IMG/VR virus record: IMGVR_UViG_3300006028_000010
Location: 36,330-100,329 of that record
DNA: 64,000 bases
DNA from: a virus
Reading direction: 5' to 3' (one strand)
Shown here one piece after another: positions 27,437-43,911 of this stretch. The notes beneath the pieces are model-generated. The model was given only the letters and a program-made list of their open reading frames with translations, was not told where the DNA came from and ran no database searches. The position numbers and the translations under genes were made by a program. The first letter of the stretch is position 1, and each line of letters begins with the position of its first letter.

Positions 27437-28369
27437 TTAGTACCAAGCTGAGCGCACGGACGCGACGAGCACGGCGGTGGACAGCGCGGACGCTGTGATT
27501 TGGTAGGTCGCGATGTCCTGCGGGTCGATTTGTGGCCAGTCGCCGTTGCGGACGACTTGGGACCACACGTTGGTGGCCCCGTTGAGGAGGGCGCTGTGCC
27601 CTGGTTGGCCCCGTTGTGGGAATTCGTCGCAGTTGATGGTGAGTACGTCACCGGCGAGTAGGGACCCGATGAACAGCAGCGACCAGCCGGAGATGAGGTC
27701 GGTGATTCGCGGCTGGTCAACTGGTCCGGTGATCGAGATGTATGGCCCGACTGGGGCGGTGCCGTAGTTCGCGACTTGCGCCACCGCTGGTGAGCCGCTG
27801 ACGCCGTAGTCCATGCCGTTGGTGAAGTCGACACCCCCGGTGTAGTCGACACCGTCGGTGCTGGGGGTGGGTAGTAGTGAGGTGCGGTCCATCCACGCGG
27901 CTGACCATTTGCGGGGGTCGGGTGCCACGAACTGGGCGCTGACCAGCAACGACTGCCATGTTCTTGGGGCGATCAGCAGCGCGTCGTCTAGTTCGACGAG
28001 CGCTGTTTGCGGGTCGAGGGGCGGGTCGCTGACACTGAGCTCATAAAGCCGGCCACCGTCGGAGCACCACGCGCCTAGTTGTTGTTCAACGAGGCGGATG
28101 GTGGGCGCGTCGGGGGCGGTGACCACGAACTCGATACCGATGATGCGGCTGTCCTGGTATGCCCTCGAGCGGAATGATCCGGCCCCGAACGGTTTCGCGG
28201 TCCGCGCGGTGCGGGGTTTGGGCCGCCCAGCCCAGCCGCTGAGTTTGGTGCACACCCATTCGACCCCGCCGCTATCGACTGGTTGCGGTCCGCCGATCAC
28301 CCGCATCAGCAGCTGAACCCCGTCGAGGGTGACGGTGGATTGGGTGGTGACCGGCGCGAACATTGTCAT
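27437..28369 (-). CDS. Distal tail protein (Dit-like)
   Basis: 310 residues directly downstream of the tape measure, with an ATGA overlap. The N-terminal half resembles siphophage Dit/minor tail domains (GVQLLMRVIGGPQPV, GIEFVVTAPDAPTI, LISVQF-like LLVSAQFVAPDPRKWSA). The C-terminal half contains a galectin-like beta domain (YGTAPVGPYISITGPVDQPRI, GDVLTINCDEFPQ). It should form the ring joining tube and tip. Confidence 0.8.
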   Translation of the reverse strand: MTMFAPVTTQSTVTLDGVQLLMRVIGGPQPVDSGGVEWVCTKLSGWAGRPKPRTARTAKPFGAGSFRSRAYQDSRIIGIEFVVTAPDAPTIRLVEQQLGAWCSDGGRLYELSVSDPPLDPQTALVELDDALLIAPRTWQSLLVSAQFVAPDPRKWSAAWMDRTSLLPTPSTDGVDYTGGVDFTNGMDYGVSGSPAVAQVANYGTAPVGPYISITGPVDQPRITDLISGWSLLFIGSLLAGDVLTINCDEFPQRGQPGHSALLNGATNVWSQVVRNGDWPQIDPQDIATYQITASALSTAVLVASVRSAWY

Positions 28370-31300
28370 GAGCGGAGGGCGAACGCTTGCCGGCGGTCAA
28401 CCATGAGGGCGATGGATTCCTCGTTTTGGTCGGCCCGTGGGTAGATGTGGAACACCGACTGCTCCCTAGTCCGGTCACGGGACTGCTGGTACATCCACGA
28501 CGGGTCCGGTCGGGGTGAGTTGGCCATTTCACCCGTGTAGGCCCGGTCGTAGCCGGGTGGCAGCGCGGTGGTGGTGGAGGGTCCGGCGGTGGTGCCGATA
28601 CCGGTGCCCTGGTGCCGCGGCCACCACTGCCCTAATTGGGGGCTTTGCGGCGCTATGGTTTGCATCGCTGCGGTGAAGCTCGCTGCCTGCTGTTGCAGCA
28701 GGCCCGCCAACTGCTGGCCACCACCAGCCCCGGCCCCGGAGAGGGCTGGGGCGATGAACTGCGCGAACAGGCGCCGCAGCAGACCCCACAGGTTGAACCC
28801 GTCGAAGCCGTCGCCTCCTCTGCGACGCCCGCGGGGGCCGTAGTCCGGTGCGGGGGCATCCGGTTCGGTGGCGTAACCCAACGCCGCCCCCGAGTCGTCG
28901 GTGGCAAGGATCCTGCCCTGGGCCAGCCCCAGGATCGGGGCGAGCATTTTGAGCAGCGGCAACAATTTGCGGGGGATGAGCATTTGCCCCATCAGTTCAG
29001 CGGTCCGGGCTAGAATCGCTTGGGACATCGCTGACTGGTTGATGGGAATGAACGCTTCCATTCCTTGCAGCCGGTCACCGATGACGCGCCACGTGTTGGG
29101 GGGCACGATTTGCGCGATGCTCGACGACATTGGGGTGAGTTTCCCCCCGGCAGCCATTCCCACGACCCCACCGGCCGCCATAGGGGCCACGATCATTCCG
29201 CTGGCGCCGCCGGTGACCGCGTTGACCACAGCGGTCCAGGTGCGGCTGACGATCGATTCCAGGCTGGCGAGAATGCCCTGAATAACACCGGATGCGTTGT
29301 CTAGGGCACCGATCGTCGCGTTCCACGCCCTACCGACGTATTCACCGGCCTTGCTGATAACGGTTTGGATGACGCTGCTAGCACTGTCAGTGGCGCTGAC
29401 CACAGCATCCCACGCCCGCCCAACCCACCCACCAACGGTGCTGATCACGGACTGGATGACGCTACTAGCGGTGTCGGTGGCGCTAACAACAGCGTCCCAC
29501 GCCCGCCCGACCCACCCACCGACCGCGCCGATCACGGACTGGATGACACCACTCGCGGTGTCGATCGCGCCGACGACAGCGTTCCACGCCCGACCAGCCC
29601 ATTCGCTGGCTTTGTTGATGACAGCCTGAATGGCTGCGGTGACGGCGGTGAACGCGGTGGTCGCGGCGCTCGCAATGCCGCTCCACAACGCAGCCGCACC
29701 CGCCGAAATACCAGCCCACAAACTGGAGAAGAACCCGCTGACAGCACCCCAAGCGGTGGTGATCCCCGTCCAGGCAGTGGACGCGGCGGCGGTGATCCCC
29801 GACCACGCCGCCGTAGCCCCCGACGAGATACCAGCCCACAAACCGGCGAAGAACCCTTGGACAGCGCCCCACGCCGCCGTGATCCCCGACCACGCCGCCG
29901 TAGCCGCCGCTTTAATGCCGGTCCACGTCGCGGACGCCGCTGCCGTTATCCCATCCCAGCCCTGTTTCAGCCCAGCAACGAACGTGTCCCAACCGGATTT
30001 GATGGCGGTCCACGTCGCGGAAGCTGCGGTCGACAACCCGGAACCGGCGTCCTTGAACCCCTGAACGAACTTGTCCCAACCGGCTTTGATTCCCTGCCAC
30101 GCCCCGTCCGCGCCGGCTTTGATACCAGCCCAGGCGTCTTTGAATCCTTGCAGGAACATGTTGTCGGGGTTGATGGCCTTCCACATGTCCTTGAAGCCCT
30201 GGATAGTGAAATCCCAGTTTTTCCACACCAGCAGCGCGATACCGGCCAAAGCCAGCAGCGGTAGCGCGATCGCCGCCACCGGGGCTAGCGCGGCTAGGAA
30301 TCCAGCGGCGATGCCTTCACCCGCGACGGCCCCTGCCACTCCTGCTTCCGCTCCCGCCACGGTCGCTGCTTCCTCCGCGACGGTCACAGCCAACCAGGCC
30401 GCCCGAAGCTTCCCGAGTAACCCGATCGCCGACCCGATGGTGGACACCATCCCAGCGGCGCCGGATACGAGTTTCGCGAACAGCCACGCATCGAAAAACG
30501 CCTGAATAATGGCGGTGGCACCGGGCACGTTGTCCATGACCCAGCGGATGACGCTGGTGACGTCATGCAGTGCTTGCAGGAAGTTAGGGCCGAACCCTTG
30601 GGCTGTCGCCAAGTCCTTGATGATCGCCACAAGGTCTTTGAACGCGCCCCACAGCTCCTTCACCGCAGCCATACCAGATTGGATCCACTGCGCTAACTGC
30701 CCGGTTTGCCGGGCATTAGACACAAACGCGGCAGCAGCTTGCGCGGCGGACGTGAAACTCGCCGCCAACCCGGGCAGAAACTGCGAGCCCACCCGGGCGA
30801 CATCGGTGAAAATCTGCAAAATGGGTTGCACCGCGCCCGCCAGCGAATGCGCCGCGGTACCAATATTGTTGAAAATAGCCTGGTAATCCGCGATCGCTGC
30901 TTTCGAAGTGGCGAACTTCGCGAAGTTCAGGACAGCCTCATTGATCGCTGCCGCTACTTGGGTCAACCCGGACCGCAGCACCGGTAACACGGTGGTGCCC
31001 ATGTTGAGCATGGCCGCACCGACACCCTGAAACAGTTGCTGCTGAACATCCATTTTCAGCGCATCAAACGCGGGTTTGAGCTGAATAATCGCCGACACAA
31101 CCTGCTGAGCGGCTGGCGCCAAGTTCTTGAGGGACGCTGCGTAGTCATCAGCGGCTTTCGCTGCGCTCTTATGCGCGGCTGCTGCTGCTGTCACGGCCTG
31201 GGTGGCGGCCTGGTGCGCCGCGGCGGACCCACCCACCGCAGCCGCGACAGCCTTGTTAGCCGTCGCGTCCGCCTCGGTGGCTTTCGCGGCGGCATCCGCC

Positions 31301-32173
31301 GCGGTGCCCGCACCTTTCAGCGCCTCACTCATACCTTGGACACCGATGGCCACCGCGCCCAAACCGAGCCCAGCACCCAACGCGATAGCGGGAATCAAAC
31401 CCAGCACACCGGTCAATTGAGCAGCGGACGCGATCGCAGGAACAAATGCCGCGCCCATGGCGACACCCATCAGCGAGCCCTTGCTGCCAACATCGGTGAC
31501 CGCTGTCCCCAACGTTTTAAGGGCAGTCGTCGCCGAGTTGGTATCAACATTGACTTTGATATTCGGGGACCGGGCACCCAAAGCGGCTAACGCAGCCTCC
31601 AACTCAGCGATTTTCGCCATAGCCGCAGCGGTGTCAATGTTTACACTGACATGAGCGTCCCTCAACGCGTCCAAGCGGGCCTTGAGCTCATCAATCCGGG
31701 CCTCAGCCTCAGCGATATCCGCATCAACCTTAACGCTGGACGGCTGAGCCTTCAGCCGCTCCAAATCGGCCTCTAAACGAGTCAGCTCAGCCCGAGCAAC
31801 AGCATCATCAAGCTCAATCCTCAGTTTAGCGGCCTGCGCCGCCGCCAACTCCGCCTTAAGAGCCGCTATCTTCTCACGGAACAACCCCGGATCAGCATCC
31901 ACCCGGATCTTGGTGTCACCGATCGTCGCGGTCTCAGCGGCGACCTTCTCCTTAAAGCCGGCCATGTTCGGGGACACGTCAACTTCGGTGTCCCGAATGT
32001 TCGCGGTCTCAGCGTCGACCTTTTCCCGGAAACCCGCCATGTTCGGCGAGATGTCGACCTCAGCGTCGTTGAGGTCGGCGAGAGCCGCGCGGATCTTCTC
32101 GTGCAAACCCTCCAGCGAAGGCGTGACCTGAAGGAAGGCTCCCCTAAGCCTCGCCTACGTTGAAGCGAGCCAT
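28366..32173 (-). CDS. Tape measure protein (apparent recoding at codon 9-10)
   Basis: About 1,260 residues. The open frame 28366-32106 has only a poorly placed TTG start. A better start is the ATG at 32173 (MARFNVGEA), which meets TAG at 32144-32146. A +1 shift at GCT-TAG, or a 10-nt bypass from GCT to GCC at 32137-32139, joins it to the main frame as ...VGEA-FLQVTPSLEGL, the opening expected for this family. Then come helical repeats (ISPNMAGFREKV twice), a hydrophobic region (about 560-600), Trp-rich repeats and four 36-residue repeats. It sets tail length and may aid DNA passage. A sequencing error or inactivating mutation cannot be excluded. Confidence 0.8.
29290..29630 (-). repeat. 108-bp coding repeats in the tape measure gene
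   Basis: About four tandem copies encode a 36-residue unit like GRAWDAVVSATDTASSVIQ. Neighbouring copies are nearly identical. Such repeats in tape measure genes allow length changes by recombination. Confidence 0.7.
32137..32149 (-). promoter_or_regulatory. Candidate recoding site at the start of the tape measure gene
   Basis: On the minus strand codon 9 is GCT (32149-32147), directly followed by TAG, GGG and AGCC. A +1 slip gives GCT-(T)-AGG-GGA-GCC; a bypass from GCT to GCC skips TAGGGGA. AGGCT and AGCCT flank the stop as inverted repeats. T4 gene 60 bypassing also starts at a codon followed by UAG, and RF2/antizyme +1 frameshifting occurs at a stop codon. Confidence 0.45.
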
Positions 32174-32176
32174 GGG

Positions 32177-32218
32177 CACCACCCCCTCACTGCCCGAAGG
32201 CGGTCAAAGGGGGTGGTG
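32177..32218 (-). promoter_or_regulatory. Hairpin enclosing the tape-measure Shine-Dalgarno
   Basis: CACCACCCCC (32177-32186, plus strand) and GGGGGTGGTG (32209-32218) pair perfectly over 10 bp around a 22-nt loop. On the mRNA the 3' arm GGGGGUGGUG contains the Shine-Dalgarno of the ATG at 32173. The stem would block initiation unless opened, for example by ribosomes finishing the chaperone extension, which stops at 32220. Confidence 0.65.
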
Positions 32219-32219
32219 A

Positions 32220-33049
32220 CTACGGTGACCCGTTGAGCGGTGGTTCGGTGAGCCGGGCTAGTTGTTGCTCGAGGTCACTCATGGCCTCATCGCGACGTTG
32301 CCGGTGGACGCGTTGCACCGCGGTTTCGGGGCGGGGTTGGGGCCGGAATTCCGGGACCCGGCCTCCTTGGGGGGTGTTGACGAGGATAATGGTGCGAACG
32401 ACCATGGCGAGCCCGTCGAGCAGCGATGCCCGCAGCTCGGCCATTTGGTCCCAATGTGACAGTGGTATCGACGCTGTGGTTCCGCGTTGTTCTGGGTCGT
32501 CTTCGTCGTCGAGTACGGCGGCGGCGGTTTCGTCGTCGTCAACGATGGCTAGTTTGTAGGCGGAATCCCAGGGTAGTCGTTCGGCTAGCGTCAGTAGTTT
32601 CCGCCAGGAGTACCGGCCCCGGAAAAAGTCCAGTAGATCGATCCCGAGGCGGGCGTGGAAATCGTATTCGAGGTGCTCGCCGTAGCGCTCTATAAGCGAG
32701 ACGAGCGCCGCAGGTTTCCCAGGTCGTCGTCCTCACCGTCGTAGTCGGGGTCGAACGGGTTCCGTTTCCATAACCCGAATTCGACCATCACATCACCGAG
32801 CATCCGCTGCAACGCCCCCGCGGGGGCGTCGATGGCCGCGTCAAGCAGTTTACGGCCTTGCTCGGCCCCCATGAGTGCTAAAACGAACTGGTCGTCGTCG
32901 GAGCGCCGGGCTTTGTTGACGAGGTCGATGGTCCGTTTGGAGGGGAACGGGATGGTCAGGATTTCCCCGTCGGGCATTTCCAGCTCGACGGGTTCCCGGG
33001 CGGCTTCTTTGGTGTAGGTGTCCCAGCGGCTCGCGAGACGTTTAGCCAT
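32220..33049 (-). CDS. Tail assembly chaperone, frameshifted long form (GT)
   Basis: 276 residues made by reading 33049-32714 and then continuing in the -1 frame to the stop at 32220. The slippery heptamer G-GGA-AAC (32714-32720) is a standard X-XXY-YYZ site, and the zero frame ends soon after at TAG (32690-32692). The extension begins PAALVSLIERYGEHLEYD and continues through WRKLLTLAERLPWDSAY, typical of gpGT-type extensions, and ends in a charged helical region. The two products should bind the tape measure and guide tube assembly. Confidence 0.85.
32690..33049 (-). CDS. Tail assembly chaperone, short form (G)
   Basis: 119 residues in the zero frame. Helical, with DGEILTIPFPSKRTIDLVNKA, a middle QFVLALMGAEQ, and an acidic end (DYDGEDDDLGN) where the slippery site lies. 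Size, position two genes after the major tail protein, and the downstream frameshift extension support the assignment. Confidence 0.85.
   Translation of the reverse strand: MAKRLASRWDTYTKEAAREPVELEMPDGEILTIPFPSKRTIDLVNKARRSDDDQFVLALMGAEQGRKLLDAAIDAPAGALQRMLGDVMVEFGLWKRNPFDPDYDGEDDDLGNLRRSSRL
32714..32720 (-). promoter_or_regulatory. -1 frameshift slippery site GGGAAAC
   Basis: The heptamer GGGAAAC is in the zero-frame phase needed for -1 slippage (CTG GGA AAC). A small fraction of ribosomes would make the long chaperone form, as in most siphophages. Confidence 0.85.
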
Positions 33050-35995: not shown

Positions 35996-37030
35996 TCAGA
36001 CCGTGGTCAGGCGGCGGGATGTGGGGACCAGGGATTCAGCCGCCGCGACCCACCGCTCGAGGTCGGTGTCGGTGTCCAACCGGTCCGCGATGCCTCTGGC
36101 CCGGGTCGACGCGGCCAGCCACTCCCGGGGGGTGGTGAGCCGCTGCAACGCTGCTACCCACGCCGACAGATCATCCCGGTCGCAGAACGTGCCCCCATCG
36201 CCCAACGCCTCCACCAAACCCGCAGTGGGATGCGCAATGGTGGGGATACCGGAACACGCCGCCTCAACCCCAGCCCGGCCGTAGCTTTCGTACGAGCTGG
36301 GCATCAACAGGATCCGGGTGCGGGCATACACCTTACGGGGCATGTCATGCGCCGCCACATGTGGAATGATCTCAACATTCGGCAGGCCATAACGGATGTC
36401 CTGCGTGCCGTAGGCGCCCCGCACACCCAGAAACTTCAGCCGAGGGAACCGGGCCGCCAACGCGTAAAACACGTCAGAACCCTTCTCCTCAAACAAGTTA
36501 ACCAACGTGACATGCCCTGTGGCGGCCGACGGGGGCTTCACCCGGTACCGGTCCCGAACGATCGGCGGGTGCACCACAATCCCCCGCGGTGGGGTGTCGT
36601 TGTGGTGTGTTCGCCACCACAACTCAGCATCGGCGCGCATCCACTCCGTGTTATAAACCGCGAGCCTGCAACCCCACCGCAGGTCAGCGAAACTCTTCGA
36701 ATGCCCATTGTGCACGATAACGGCGACCGGGATTTTGTGCATGTCACCCAAGATGCTCGCCCGTAGCGTGTTCTCCAGGTAGGTAACAATCAAATCTGGT
36801 GGATGCTCTGACTCAACCCAACGTATCGGATCGTACTGATCCTGATAGGGAAATACTGTCACGCCTTCATAGGTGTACGGTCCGGTGGCGAACATCGGGT
36901 GCGGCGTTGACAATTGCACCGAACACTGATGCCCGCTGGCCACCAACGCTTTCAGCAACTCACTAGACATGACCTCCGCGCCGGCACAGTGATGCGGCAA
37001 CCAGAGGTGCGCGCAGCACAGGACCCGCAC
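35996..37030 (-). CDS. Glycosyltransferase, GT4-like
   Basis: 344 residues. Two Rossmann-like halves: N-terminal MRVLCCAHLWLPHHCAGAEVM and HPPDLIVTYLENTLRASI, C-terminal GHVTLVNLFEEKGSDVFYALAARFP and the donor-binding PSSYESYGRAGVEAACSGIPTIA with the E-x7-E type pattern of GT4 enzymes. Placed between capsid and adaptor genes. It probably transfers a sugar to a virion protein or host target; substrate unknown. Two more glycosyltransferases and an epimerase lie at 50-54 kb. Confidence 0.85.
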   Translation of the reverse strand: MRVLCCAHLWLPHHCAGAEVMSSELLKALVASGHQCSVQLSTPHPMFATGPYTYEGVTVFPYQDQYDPIRWVESEHPPDLIVTYLENTLRASILGDMHKIPVAVIVHNGHSKSFADLRWGCRLAVYNTEWMRADAELWWRTHHNDTPPRGIVVHPPIVRDRYRVKPPSAATGHVTLVNLFEEKGSDVFYALAARFPRLKFLGVRGAYGTQDIRYGLPNVEIIPHVAAHDMPRKVYARTRILLMPSSYESYGRAGVEAACSGIPTIAHPTAGLVEALGDGGTFCDRDDLSAWVAALQRLTTPREWLAASTRARGIADRLDTDTDLERWVAAAESLVPTSRRLTTV

Positions 37031-40315: not shown

Positions 40316-41158
40316 TTAGCCTCCCGGGATCTCGCTGGGGCCGGTCCAATGCTGATCCCGCACAGCCAGGACAGGACCGAGTTCCCCATGGTTGTGCGTG
40401 ACGAGTATTTTGTGGTAATCAATAGGCCCGCTGGTGCCACCGGCCGACACGTACTTGTCACCTAAGTCCCGAGCTATCACAGCGTGCAACTCTTCAGCGG
40501 GCACTTCATCTGGGCGAGCACCACCGAAGAGGGGTTCCACGGCACAATCACAATTATTGTGGATAGGAAGCAGGTCACCACGGCTGTACCGCCGGGTTGA
40601 CGCTAAAACACACAGCGCGCAAGAATGCGGACCAGTAAGAACGCGGCGATAACCAGTAACGCGTCGATCATTCCGCATCACCTCTCGGGCAGTGTGCGTT
40701 TTGGCCAGCTGCAAATCGGTGGCCGCGATGCTCTGCGCCCGCCGCCCACCAGCAGCCACCGCCACATCAAACGGTTTACCGCGGGACAGATCGGTCCACA
40801 CCTGAACGTAGGGCCGCCGATACACCTCGGTCGGGGCGACGCCACGCAGCCCGCTCAACGCATCCTGAGAGATGCCCACGGGGGCGGTGCTGCCCCCACC
40901 GGCAGCGGCTATCACCTGCGCAAGATAAGCGCTGGTCACACCCGCCATGACCTGCTGGGCAGCCAACACAGTGGGCACCACCGACAAAACGAACGCCTCA
41001 GCCGCGGCATCCCGATAATCACCCTGAGCGGCGTACATCATGGCCACAAAACCCAGCAGCCGGGACCTCAACGCGGTGGTAGCCGCGAAATAGGCGGCGG
41101 TCATGGCCGCTGTGCTGGCGTCCTGGGGTTGCGGCGGCGGATTGGGAGGGGCGGTCAC
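40316..41158 (-). CDS. MuF-like minor capsid protein
   Basis: 280 residues. Helical N-terminus (about 1-130), then the MuF domain: TDLQLAKTHTAREVMRND, GYRRVLTGPHSCALCVLASTRRYSRGDLLPIHNNCDCAVEPLFGG with the Cys-His cluster. The C-terminal 60 residues (EELHAVIARDLGDKYV, KILVTHNHGELGPVLAV) are a short tail often seen in such proteins. GTGA overlap with the portal stop. Confidence 0.85.
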   Translation of the reverse strand: MTAPPNPPPQPQDASTAAMTAAYFAATTALRSRLLGFVAMMYAAQGDYRDAAAEAFVLSVVPTVLAAQQVMAGVTSAYLAQVIAAAGGGSTAPVGISQDALSGLRGVAPTEVYRRPYVQVWTDLSRGKPFDVAVAAGGRRAQSIAATDLQLAKTHTAREVMRNDRRVTGYRRVLTGPHSCALCVLASTRRYSRGDLLPIHNNCDCAVEPLFGGARPDEVPAEELHAVIARDLGDKYVSAGGTSGPIDYHKILVTHNHGELGPVLAVRDQHWTGPSEIPGG

Positions 41159-43911
41159 GGCTGCGAACTAATGGCAGGACCAGACGGTCGCACCCTTTCA
41201 GCGGCAGCGCTACCAGCGGGCAGCCCCATAGCCCGAGCGACCGCCTGGGCGGGAACCGCGGCACCACCAGGGGCACCAGCCGGCTTAGGCGCATTGAACG
41301 GCGCCGCCGGTGGAGACAGAATCGAGTTCAGCATGGCGTCCGATGCCCGTTCCGACTGCATCCGATCAATCTGGCTGGGCGTGAACGGTAACAAACTCAT
41401 CCGGGTACGCCACGGAACCCCCGCAGTGACCAGCTGCACATTCGCCGCTGCCATCTCCATCAACGTCCGGAACTGGGGGTCCTGCCAGATCACTTCGCAA
41501 TCATCGGGGACGGTTTTGCCTTGCACCATCCCCGCGAGCTGATACACGGTCTCCCACGATTCCCCGAATTCGGCGCTGCGTTCGGTGACCTTGCTGGTCA
41601 GGCCGGTTTCGGCGGCGGCCAAGGCGTCGCCGCTGTTGTGTGTTGCGATAAATGCATCGGTCACGCAGAACAGATGCGATGGGCCTGTTACAGTGATGCA
41701 CCGCACCGGCACAGAATCAACCGGGTCGCATGACACGATGAACCGTTGGAATACCTTCTGCTGCCCTGAGCTACTGAACTCAGTGTTCTGGAGTGCCGCT
41801 TTGCGCGCCAACCGGAACACTGGGTCGCGGGCCGACCATACCAAACGCCAACGATCCCCCGCGATTCCCTTGCTTTTTGACGTGAACCGGCCCTTTCGCA
41901 ACATCACCTTGTGTCCAAGGGACTGAATCAAGCGCGCGGCGTCTGTAGATAGCCGCTCATCATGGAAGCCTAGCTCCATTCCACCCTGGCCACGTTTCAC
42001 GGTGCCATCGGTGTCCATCAACCCTTGCAGCAACGCAAGCCGCTGCTTAAATGATCCGTGGAAGTACTCCTCGGGAATGTGCTTATTCTTCCACAATCCT
42101 GCAAGTTTAAGCCGCGCCACGAATGACCGGTTGGACCTAGCCGGAAGTTGGCTCGGACGCCCATGATACTTGTCCAGCTGCCGAACGCGATCACACTCCA
42201 TGCAATGCCTGCTGATCGTGTGAGTACCCTTTGGCTGTCCCCGATCGTGCCCATAAGGACACAGATCCGGGTCATGCCGGATACAGATATGCATACAGTT
42301 CCGGTGTTCGTGATCAGTGTAGGGGCGTACATCCACACGCTCACCACAGTCACGTAAGTGCGTGGCCATCTCCGCAGCGTCATCAACATGTGATGTGATC
42401 AGGCCGTTCACTCGGTCACCGTCACCGAGCCACACACCTAGTACATAGGGATGGATCAAGTACTCACGTTCCGGGCCATCGGGTGGTCCGGCCACCTCGA
42501 TGAAGTGGTTGTTCGTGCCCATGCTTGTGCGCAGCGACGCAGCTATCTGCTCCGTCGTCACCGTGGAGGTTTCCCGGAAAGCGCCTCGCAACTGTTTGCC
42601 CGTGTATCCAGTACCTCTGGTCGGCCGCCAGTACGGCCGTTGCGGATCACTGAAGTGGGTAGTTGTCCACAAGTGCGCTCCGTCAGCAACCACTGACGTA
42701 CCGTCAGAGAAGACGACTCTGTAGCAATCCCGATCGACGAAAATCGGAGAGATCGCTGTGACTTTCTGAACAGTGCCCGTCTCATCGAACACCGCATCAC
42801 CGATGGACACATCACCCATGGTGGTGCGCCCATCGGGGGTAGGAATGACCGTGTCGAGAGCTAGGGGAGCGTTGATAATTGATCCTAGCAGGTAGTGCGG
42901 CGGGGTGCGGGTGATAGCCGCTAGATGCTGCACATCGGCCTCGACCGCTTTCAGCACCGACGTCAGGTCGGCGGGTTGGAATTCCCCGAATTTCGCGGCG
43001 TCATCAGCCACGTTCCACAACAAATCAGCACCCGGGTCGAAACCCCCGGCGGGGTTACCGTTCTCATCCGTGAGATCCACGCCGGTGGCCCACCGTTGCC
43101 GATACGCTTGCATCGTGGAAATCACCATCCGGTCCAACACTTCAGTGTTGATCCGGTCCTGCACCGGTAGTACGTCCTCGAATTCGCCTAACGTGTTCCC
43201 ACCAAGGTCGGGGCAGCACATGAAGGGAACAACGGGGACCTCGCCGAGGGTGTTGACGGCGTACCCGTCGGGGTAGTCGTCGCTGACGTCTGGTTCCCAC
43301 GCGGCTTGGGTCCACATGTTGGTGGGGGGCTGTTTTTGGGTGCGGCCCCGGTAGTAGTGGATCGAGTCGGGTAGGTACAGCACGGCTTGCTGGCGGCTGT
43401 TGATGTCGTCCCACCACGTTTTGAGCGCGGCGAGCCGTTTCCGCCGGTTGGTGGGGGAGCTTTCGTGGATGACCTGCCGCGGGTCTTCACCTGTGACCAG
43501 CGGCTGCCCGGGGTGGTCCGGGTCTTCCCCGACGATGACGTACGCGCGGGACATGACGATCGCAGCCCTGTGTACGAGCCCGGAGTCGGCGTCGAGATGG
43601 TTGGACTGCCACCATCCCCAGGCTTGTTTGTCGAGGGTTTCGGAGCCGTCACCCCCGGTGCGGAACCCGGTGACTTTGAGGCGTTCCACCACGGACTCGG
43701 CGACCAGTTTGCAGAAGTTCGTTTTGCTCTGCTTCTGGAATTTGCGGTACGCCTCCCGCATCTTCATATTCCCGAAGGGCAGGGGGTGGTTACCGCGCCA
43801 GTAGTCGTCGAGGCGGTCCATGCGGGGGATGTCCCCGCCGAGGCGGGCCCCGAGGCGCAGTAGCCACCAGTCGGGGCTGTTGGGGGTTTTCGCGTCAGGC
43901 AGCACGCACAC
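41155..43911 (-). CDS. Portal protein interrupted by an intein
   Basis: 918 residues as translated; excision of residues 349-759 would leave about 507, the usual size of SPP1/HK97-type portals. N-extein: DYWRGNHPLPFG, RAAIVMSRAYVIVG, VVPFMCCPDLGG, ending YLLGSIINA. C-extein resumes at SGDALAAAETGLTSKV, giving NA-SGDAL across the joint as in intact portals. The intein must splice for packaging. The start is at 43911, 47 nt from the divergent XRE gene. Confidence 0.9.
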   Translation of the reverse strand: MCVLPDAKTPNSPDWWLLRLGARLGGDIPRMDRLDDYWRGNHPLPFGNMKMREAYRKFQKQSKTNFCKLVAESVVERLKVTGFRTGGDGSETLDKQAWGWWQSNHLDADSGLVHRAAIVMSRAYVIVGEDPDHPGQPLVTGEDPRQVIHESSPTNRRKRLAALKTWWDDINSRQQAVLYLPDSIHYYRGRTQKQPPTNMWTQAAWEPDVSDDYPDGYAVNTLGEVPVVPFMCCPDLGGNTLGEFEDVLPVQDRINTEVLDRMVISTMQAYRQRWATGVDLTDENGNPAGGFDPGADLLWNVADDAAKFGEFQPADLTSVLKAVEADVQHLAAITRTPPHYLLGSIINAPLALDTVIPTPDGRTTMGDVSIGDAVFDETGTVQKVTAISPIFVDRDCYRVVFSDGTSVVADGAHLWTTTHFSDPQRPYWRPTRGTGYTGKQLRGAFRETSTVTTEQIAASLRTSMGTNNHFIEVAGPPDGPEREYLIHPYVLGVWLGDGDRVNGLITSHVDDAAEMATHLRDCGERVDVRPYTDHEHRNCMHICIRHDPDLCPYGHDRGQPKGTHTISRHCMECDRVRQLDKYHGRPSQLPARSNRSFVARLKLAGLWKNKHIPEEYFHGSFKQRLALLQGLMDTDGTVKRGQGGMELGFHDERLSTDAARLIQSLGHKVMLRKGRFTSKSKGIAGDRWRLVWSARDPVFRLARKAALQNTEFSSSGQQKVFQRFIVSCDPVDSVPVRCITVTGPSHLFCVTDAFIATHNSGDALAAAETGLTSKVTERSAEFGESWETVYQLAGMVQGKTVPDDCEVIWQDPQFRTLMEMAAANVQLVTAGVPWRTRMSLLPFTPSQIDRMQSERASDAMLNSILSPPAAPFNAPKPAGAPGGAAVPAQAVARAMGLPAGSAAAERVRPSGPAISSQP
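41635..42867 (-). other. Class 3-like intein with LAGLIDADG endonuclease in the portal
   Basis: Portal residues 349-759 (411 aa). It begins PLALDTVIPTPDG with Pro, not Cys or Ser, at position 1. The block B region has Trp415 (GAHLWTTTH), block F has Cys738 (PVRCITV), and block G has Thr751 (FCVTDAFIATHN) before Ser+1. Trp-Cys-Thr with no N-terminal nucleophile is the signature of class 3 inteins, which initiate through the block F Cys. The middle has two LAGLIDADG motifs, YVLGVWLGDGD and ALLQGLMDTDG, and a Cys-rich insert (CPYGHD, HCMECDR) between them. It is inserted in a conserved portal motif. Confidence 0.85.

Follow-up and report, generated by a model that had tools for sequence, protein, structure and literature searches.

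How is a tape-measure protein (TMP) made from a gene whose ATG, set behind a strong Shine-Dalgarno run, leads to a stop after nine codons? We address this question for the TMP gene on the minus strand of a 64,000-nt stretch of viral DNA (the window; positions 36,330 to 100,329 of the 100 kb IMG/VR virus record IMGVR_UViG_3300006028_000010). The likely answer, from sequence comparison, is that ribosomes hop over the UAG, and that the gene belongs to a recurrent natural class of stop hops and bypasses linked, in part at least, to the insertion of homing endonucleases.

The initial annotation had placed a short leader frame ahead of the TMP main frame, and its coordinates are correct. ATG 32173-32171 opens a coding segment (32147..32173) for MARFNVGEA whose last codon, the take-off codon GCT (32149-32147), is followed directly by TAG (32146-32144), as had been described. 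The main frame indeed has no start codon at the junction and continues 10 nt downstream, the letters reading GCT, then TAGGGGA, then GCC TTC CTT CAG. The 10 nt passed over (TAGGGGAGCC, 32137..32146) comprise a 7-nt gap, in which GGGA (32143-32140) follows the stop, and the putative landing codon GCC (32139-32137); they are missing from contiguous TMP relatives. The main frame resumes at TTC 32136 (FLQVTPSLEGLHEKI...) and runs for 1,256 codons to TGA (28366..32136), matching PHROG tail length tape measure families (best E 1e-49). Its earliest usable start is the TTG at 32106 that the annotation had named, ten codons past the resume codon; the intervening codons encode FLQVTPSLEG.

Two routes across this junction had been proposed: a 10-nt bypass from GCU to GCC like that in phage T4 gene 60, and a +1 frameshift like that of RF2. 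By the bypass, translation would initiate at ATG 32173 and MARFNVGEA would be synthesised; with UAG in the A site, peptidyl-tRNA-Ala would detach from GCU, the mRNA would slide 10 nt and the tRNA would re-pair with GCC. Decoding would then restart at UUC to give MARFNVGEAFLQVTPSLEGL..., a normal TMP N-terminus.

Searching IMG/VR with the spliced window N-terminus located a second copy of the design, L003; a genome scan with this N-terminus gave no matches, and the TMP DNA of the window showed no similarity to phage records. The L003 gene begins ATG GCT CGA TTT AAT GTT GGC GAG GCG TTT CTC, then TAGTTAG, then CTT CAA GTA. Joined at CTC/CTT it encodes MARFNVGEAFLQV, with 13 of 13 residues the same as in the window, the whole leader peptide included; the nine nucleotide differences over these 13 codons are all third-position and synonymous. 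The L003 gap again has 7 nt with TAG first and a synonymous codon after it, in other letters and two codons later. Because an independent relative has the same design in different letters, the window design is more than chance.

Contiguous relatives provide a reference for the joint. Ordinary TMP N-termini are VGTAFLQVLPSF in L018, AGVAYLHVVPSLEGLH in L021 and TTIGYATLQIIPS in M. abscessus prophages; in these, and in GMA4 and Poushou, there is no extra residue at the joint position. The hop product (NVGEAFLQV) matches the contiguous TMPs exactly. A programmed +1 frameshift at GCU-UAG would arrive in this same frame, because 10 nt amount to a net +1. No stop closes the +1 frame of the window, and one related gene, L218, does require a net +1 shift. 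The slip product, however, would read ARGAFLQV (NVGEARGAFLQV) at the joint, and the Arg-Gly-Ala thereby added before FLQV is missing from all contiguous relatives. Nor could tRNA-Ala re-pair with CUU (a GCU to CUU mismatch). In L003 the +1 frame also holds a TAG, immediately ahead of the landing codon, which rules out a plain +1 slip in that gene. Frameshifting would also leave the synonymous landing codons unexplained, and in-frame members with 6-nt inserts, described below, require no shift. Because contiguous relatives show no residues added at the joint, it is the 10-nt bypass, of the two proposed routes, that has support, and we regard the RF2-like one as very unlikely for the window.

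Ribosomes might instead terminate at UAG and re-initiate at TTG 32106, or at a non-AUG codon at the landing site, making a TMP minus its first nine residues while the leader only couples translation. That TTG is available, and in Cluster O mycobacteriophages whose tmp follows an HNH gene, translation of tmp appears either to begin at ACG or to involve bypassing (PMC4351075). But the codons from the gap to the TTG are conserved as protein (FLQV is 4/4 with L003, with third-position changes only), GCC is not a start codon, and the leader peptide is what relatives have as their true TMP N-terminus. In L003 the first in-frame start after the gap is an ATG 30 codons on. All this makes re-initiation quite unlikely.

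Comparison of related phages at this codon, suggested in the initial annotation, yielded seven further TMP genes that carry UAG after codon 9-12. Members are phages or prophages; further ones emerged when whole genomes and viral contigs were searched with profiles and patterns, and L215 and L218 came from a search seeded on the upstream nuclease. We count eight interrupted genes with the window, taking L069 and L164, which carry the same sequence, as one. A synonymous codon follows the stop in six of the seven (L003, L048, L069/L164, L165, L168 and L215). The junction is CTT TAG CTT in L048, the sole member with identical take-off and landing codons; GTT TAG GTC in L069/L164; and CTT TAG CTC in L165, L168 and L215. 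In L218 (2108-2140) it is CTC TAG C, the source of the net +1 mentioned above. Aligned as DNA with the M. abscessus prophages, which are intact counterparts of the interrupted TMPs, L048, L165 and L168 have exactly six bases inserted; judged by such comparisons, joining at the synonymous codon restores precisely the N-terminus that ordinary relatives encode without a break. The pattern hits L166, L167 and L263 were judged to be chance, and a plasmid search gave nothing useful. A small degraded prophage-like element (L050; G332, contig C69) has a capsid gene directly before its stop-hop TMP gene, and two integrases.

A blind scan covered 302,578 possible splices in all fetched loci, allowing any stop and net shifts from -2 to +24 and using a profile from contiguous TMPs only. 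It returned the eight TMP genes plus two spurious weak matches; the stop was UAG in all eight genes and the best joint was the synonymous codon in seven. The mark of the class in actinobacterial phages would be an NNY codon, the 9th to 12th of the TMP gene, with UAG directly behind it, then 0 or 4 nt and a synonymous codon; L218 would shift +1 instead. In general the mRNA would move 6 or 10 nt and the P-site tRNA would re-pair at the next synonymous codon. The stop-hop arrangement, nine nt for one residue, fits L048, L069/L164, L165, L168 and L215 exactly, and the window and L003 are a version with 4 extra nt.

Readthrough of UAG by a suppressor or near-cognate tRNA would suit two features of this set: in L048, L069, L165, L168 and L215 the stop and the frame that follows it are in phase, and all stops are UAG. 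Yet it cannot serve the window or L003, because their downstream frames differ from that of the stop, and it leaves the 10-nt gaps unexplained. The readthrough product would hold L-x-L or V-x-V, that is two added residues missing from relatives, and the flanking synonymous codons would be coincidence. A search for a suppressor found no tRNA genes in the window or the remainder of its record. We consider readthrough highly improbable.

The take-off codon is CTT in four genes, GCT and GTT in one each, and CTC in L003 and L218, hence mostly NNU, and the landing codon is mostly a C-ending synonym. With U or C as the last letter of every take-off and landing codon, one G34 tRNA should read both, by standard decoding rules with weak wobble at take-off and usually Watson-Crick pairing at landing. 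Such same-tRNA pairing of codons has no place in readthrough or re-initiation models. Of the take-off codons, CTT and GTT are rare among synonyms in the same genes (CTT 1/42, 0/78 and 4/43; GTT 1/28), and contiguous TMPs seldom have CTT at this position (5/~60). Synonymous landing by chance has a probability of ~4e-6, a rough figure from five conservatively independent sites.

That the interruptions are sequencing or assembly errors, or mark dead genes, might be suspected from records that are metagenome-derived, and from L048, which lies in a degraded element. Against this, several records, drawn from different metagenomes, have the design, as does one whole bacterial genome (G486). The inserts are only 1, 6 or 10 nt long and each makes UAG at once, and the TMP frames downstream of the junction are intact as far as the records extend, up to 1,256 codons. 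We give error or gene death very little credence.

What might stimulate a hop was sought in RNA structure. The AGGCT/AGCCT inverted repeat noted in the initial annotation is present, and a take-off stem-loop AGGCU/AGCCU is possible in the window, but relatives show no conserved hairpin like it. A different, strong 12-bp hairpin lies just 5′ of the TMP start (32177..32218, minus strand) and also occurs in L003; 17 nt (GGGCAGTGAGGGGGTGG) are exactly common to the two although their upstream genes differ. It holds the Shine-Dalgarno run GAGGGGG of the TMP start, which it would cover. Rfam gave no match for this hairpin or the hop element, and a hairpin pattern search recovered L003 only, plus a chance match, L011. 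The upstream hairpin is a candidate stimulus for the window and L003 only.

The genes upstream of the interrupted TMPs point to a possible origin. A zinc-finger HNH gene (PF01844) lies between chaperone and TMP genes in L164/L069, L165 and L168, overlapping the TMP start in the latter two, and in L215 an HNH gene is likewise directly upstream. The zinc-finger gene upstream in L218 has an HNH-like C-terminus. Counting L218, whose domain is uncertain, an HNH-type gene adjoins the TMP start in five of the eight interrupted genes (L164, L165, L168, L215 and L218); L048 is without one. Among 171 TMP upstream regions, PF01844-type HNH genes were found only before interrupted TMPs. Interrupted TMPs make up 5/8 of the nuclease-seeded set versus ~1/40 of the profile-seeded genome set (Fisher p ~2e-4, for loci that are not fully independent and an approximate background count). 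The HNH-led Gordonia phages Periwinkle, Phistory and Whitney were rejected as members, their TMP starts being ordinary and contiguous. The window has two free-standing HNH endonuclease genes (PF01844; 26746-27345 and 37058-38308, minus strand) among its structural genes. Neither adjoins the TMP gene, so the homing link there is by kinship only.

We infer that a homing endonuclease directed at the TMP start either accompanied the origin of the insert or is what the insert guards against, as has been proposed for T4 mobA and gene 60. Alternatively or additionally, a leaky early stop may keep TMP synthesis low. By a slight lean we favor the fuller account that short UAG hops at TMP starts arise repeatedly and spread as a cassette with an HNH gene between chaperone and TMP, the insert making the phage's own target uncuttable while same-tRNA NNU-to-NNC re-pairing keeps the essential gene readable.

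Several points weigh against a hopping class with a homing origin. The hop itself is deduced from comparing genes, strong as that comparison is. RNA folding at the hop site of the eight genes gave no structural excess or conservation (z +0.2 to -1.7), and a nascent peptide of 9-12 residues is too short for a tunnel signal of the gene 60 type. A matched landing codon is missing from L218, where the open reading frame upstream matches only a zinc-finger model in Pfam. L048, given its degraded setting, could be a pseudogene. The window and L003 are without an adjacent HNH gene, three HNH-led TMPs (L213, L216 and L217) are contiguous, and some members may share common ancestry, so that the counts are not fully independent. 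Our reading remains that the ribosomes probably hop, and the finding appears to reach beyond the initial description, to a class of short stop hops and bypasses that recurs naturally in TMP genes.

Two further features of the window were recorded. The gene upstream of the TMP (32220..33049, minus strand) encodes the tail assembly chaperones G and G-T and is given for context; it has a canonical -1 slippery heptamer, G GGA AAC, at 32720-32714 (minus strand), whose phase is the one needed to fuse G into G-T. A portal-type gene at 41155-43911 (minus strand) has an apparent in-frame intein (ALDTVIPTPDGRTTMGDV ... DAFIATHN).

Among the closest known systems are synthetic stop hops, laboratory constructs in which nine nt are decoded as a single residue (Weiss et al. 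1987, cited in PMC5009743). The relatives' CTT TAG CTC and GTT TAG GTC are exactly that arrangement, here within conserved phage genes. The 2016 review gives a natural in-frame stop hop as not known (PMC5009743). Its passages on Streptomyces phage Hau3 and prophage StrepC.1 describe a terminase bypass candidate, also a suspected short bypass in an actinobacterial phage structural or packaging gene; the gene is another one, the event is UUA-dependent with a KGWG nascent motif, and no UAG stop hop is described in those passages (PMC5009743). The byp elements of Magnusiomyces mitochondria, as outlined there, are likewise short inserts skipped by ribosomes, but they are mitochondrial, occur in many genes and have relaxed codon matching (PMC5009743).

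In Corndog and Firecracker (Cluster O) an HNH gene directly precedes a tmp without a normal start and there is no RNA splicing; an ACG start or bypassing was proposed in 2015 (PMC4351075). The HNH gene is inserted right ahead of tmp as in several members of our class, but it belongs to another family (HNH_3), and no short TAG-ended leader with a matched landing codon was found in Firecracker, Smooch, Catdawg or Suarez. In Firecracker (L206, 1497-1510) and Smooch (L208, 997-1010) only a few nt separate the end of the HNH gene from the tmp frame, whose beginning is ACG, with no ATG, GTG or TTG. The present finding bears on the Corndog tape-measure start, left unexplained in 2015.

To our knowledge, T4 gene 60 is the standard and nearly solitary bacterial example of programmed bypassing. 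There the HNH gene mobA adjoins the bypassed gene (PMC5009743, PMC3014915, PMC2988022). Our class resembles it in the UAG right after the take-off codon, the matched landing codon, the putatively untranslated gap, the phage setting and, in several relatives, the HNH homing-type gene beside the affected gene. It differs in gap length (~47 nt in T4 versus 3 or 7 nt here), in having only 9-12 codons before the gap (9 in the window) where T4 has a nascent-peptide signal ~30 residues upstream, in lacking a conserved take-off stem-loop, and in pairing codons that are synonyms, typically NNU with NNC, instead of identical ones. It also lies in a tape-measure gene and is seen in several phages, its codon position varying slightly among them. 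A short-hop family without tunnel peptide or conserved RNA structure would show how little a ribosome jump needs, and the HNH link would turn the idea drawn from mobA and gene 60 into a general rule.
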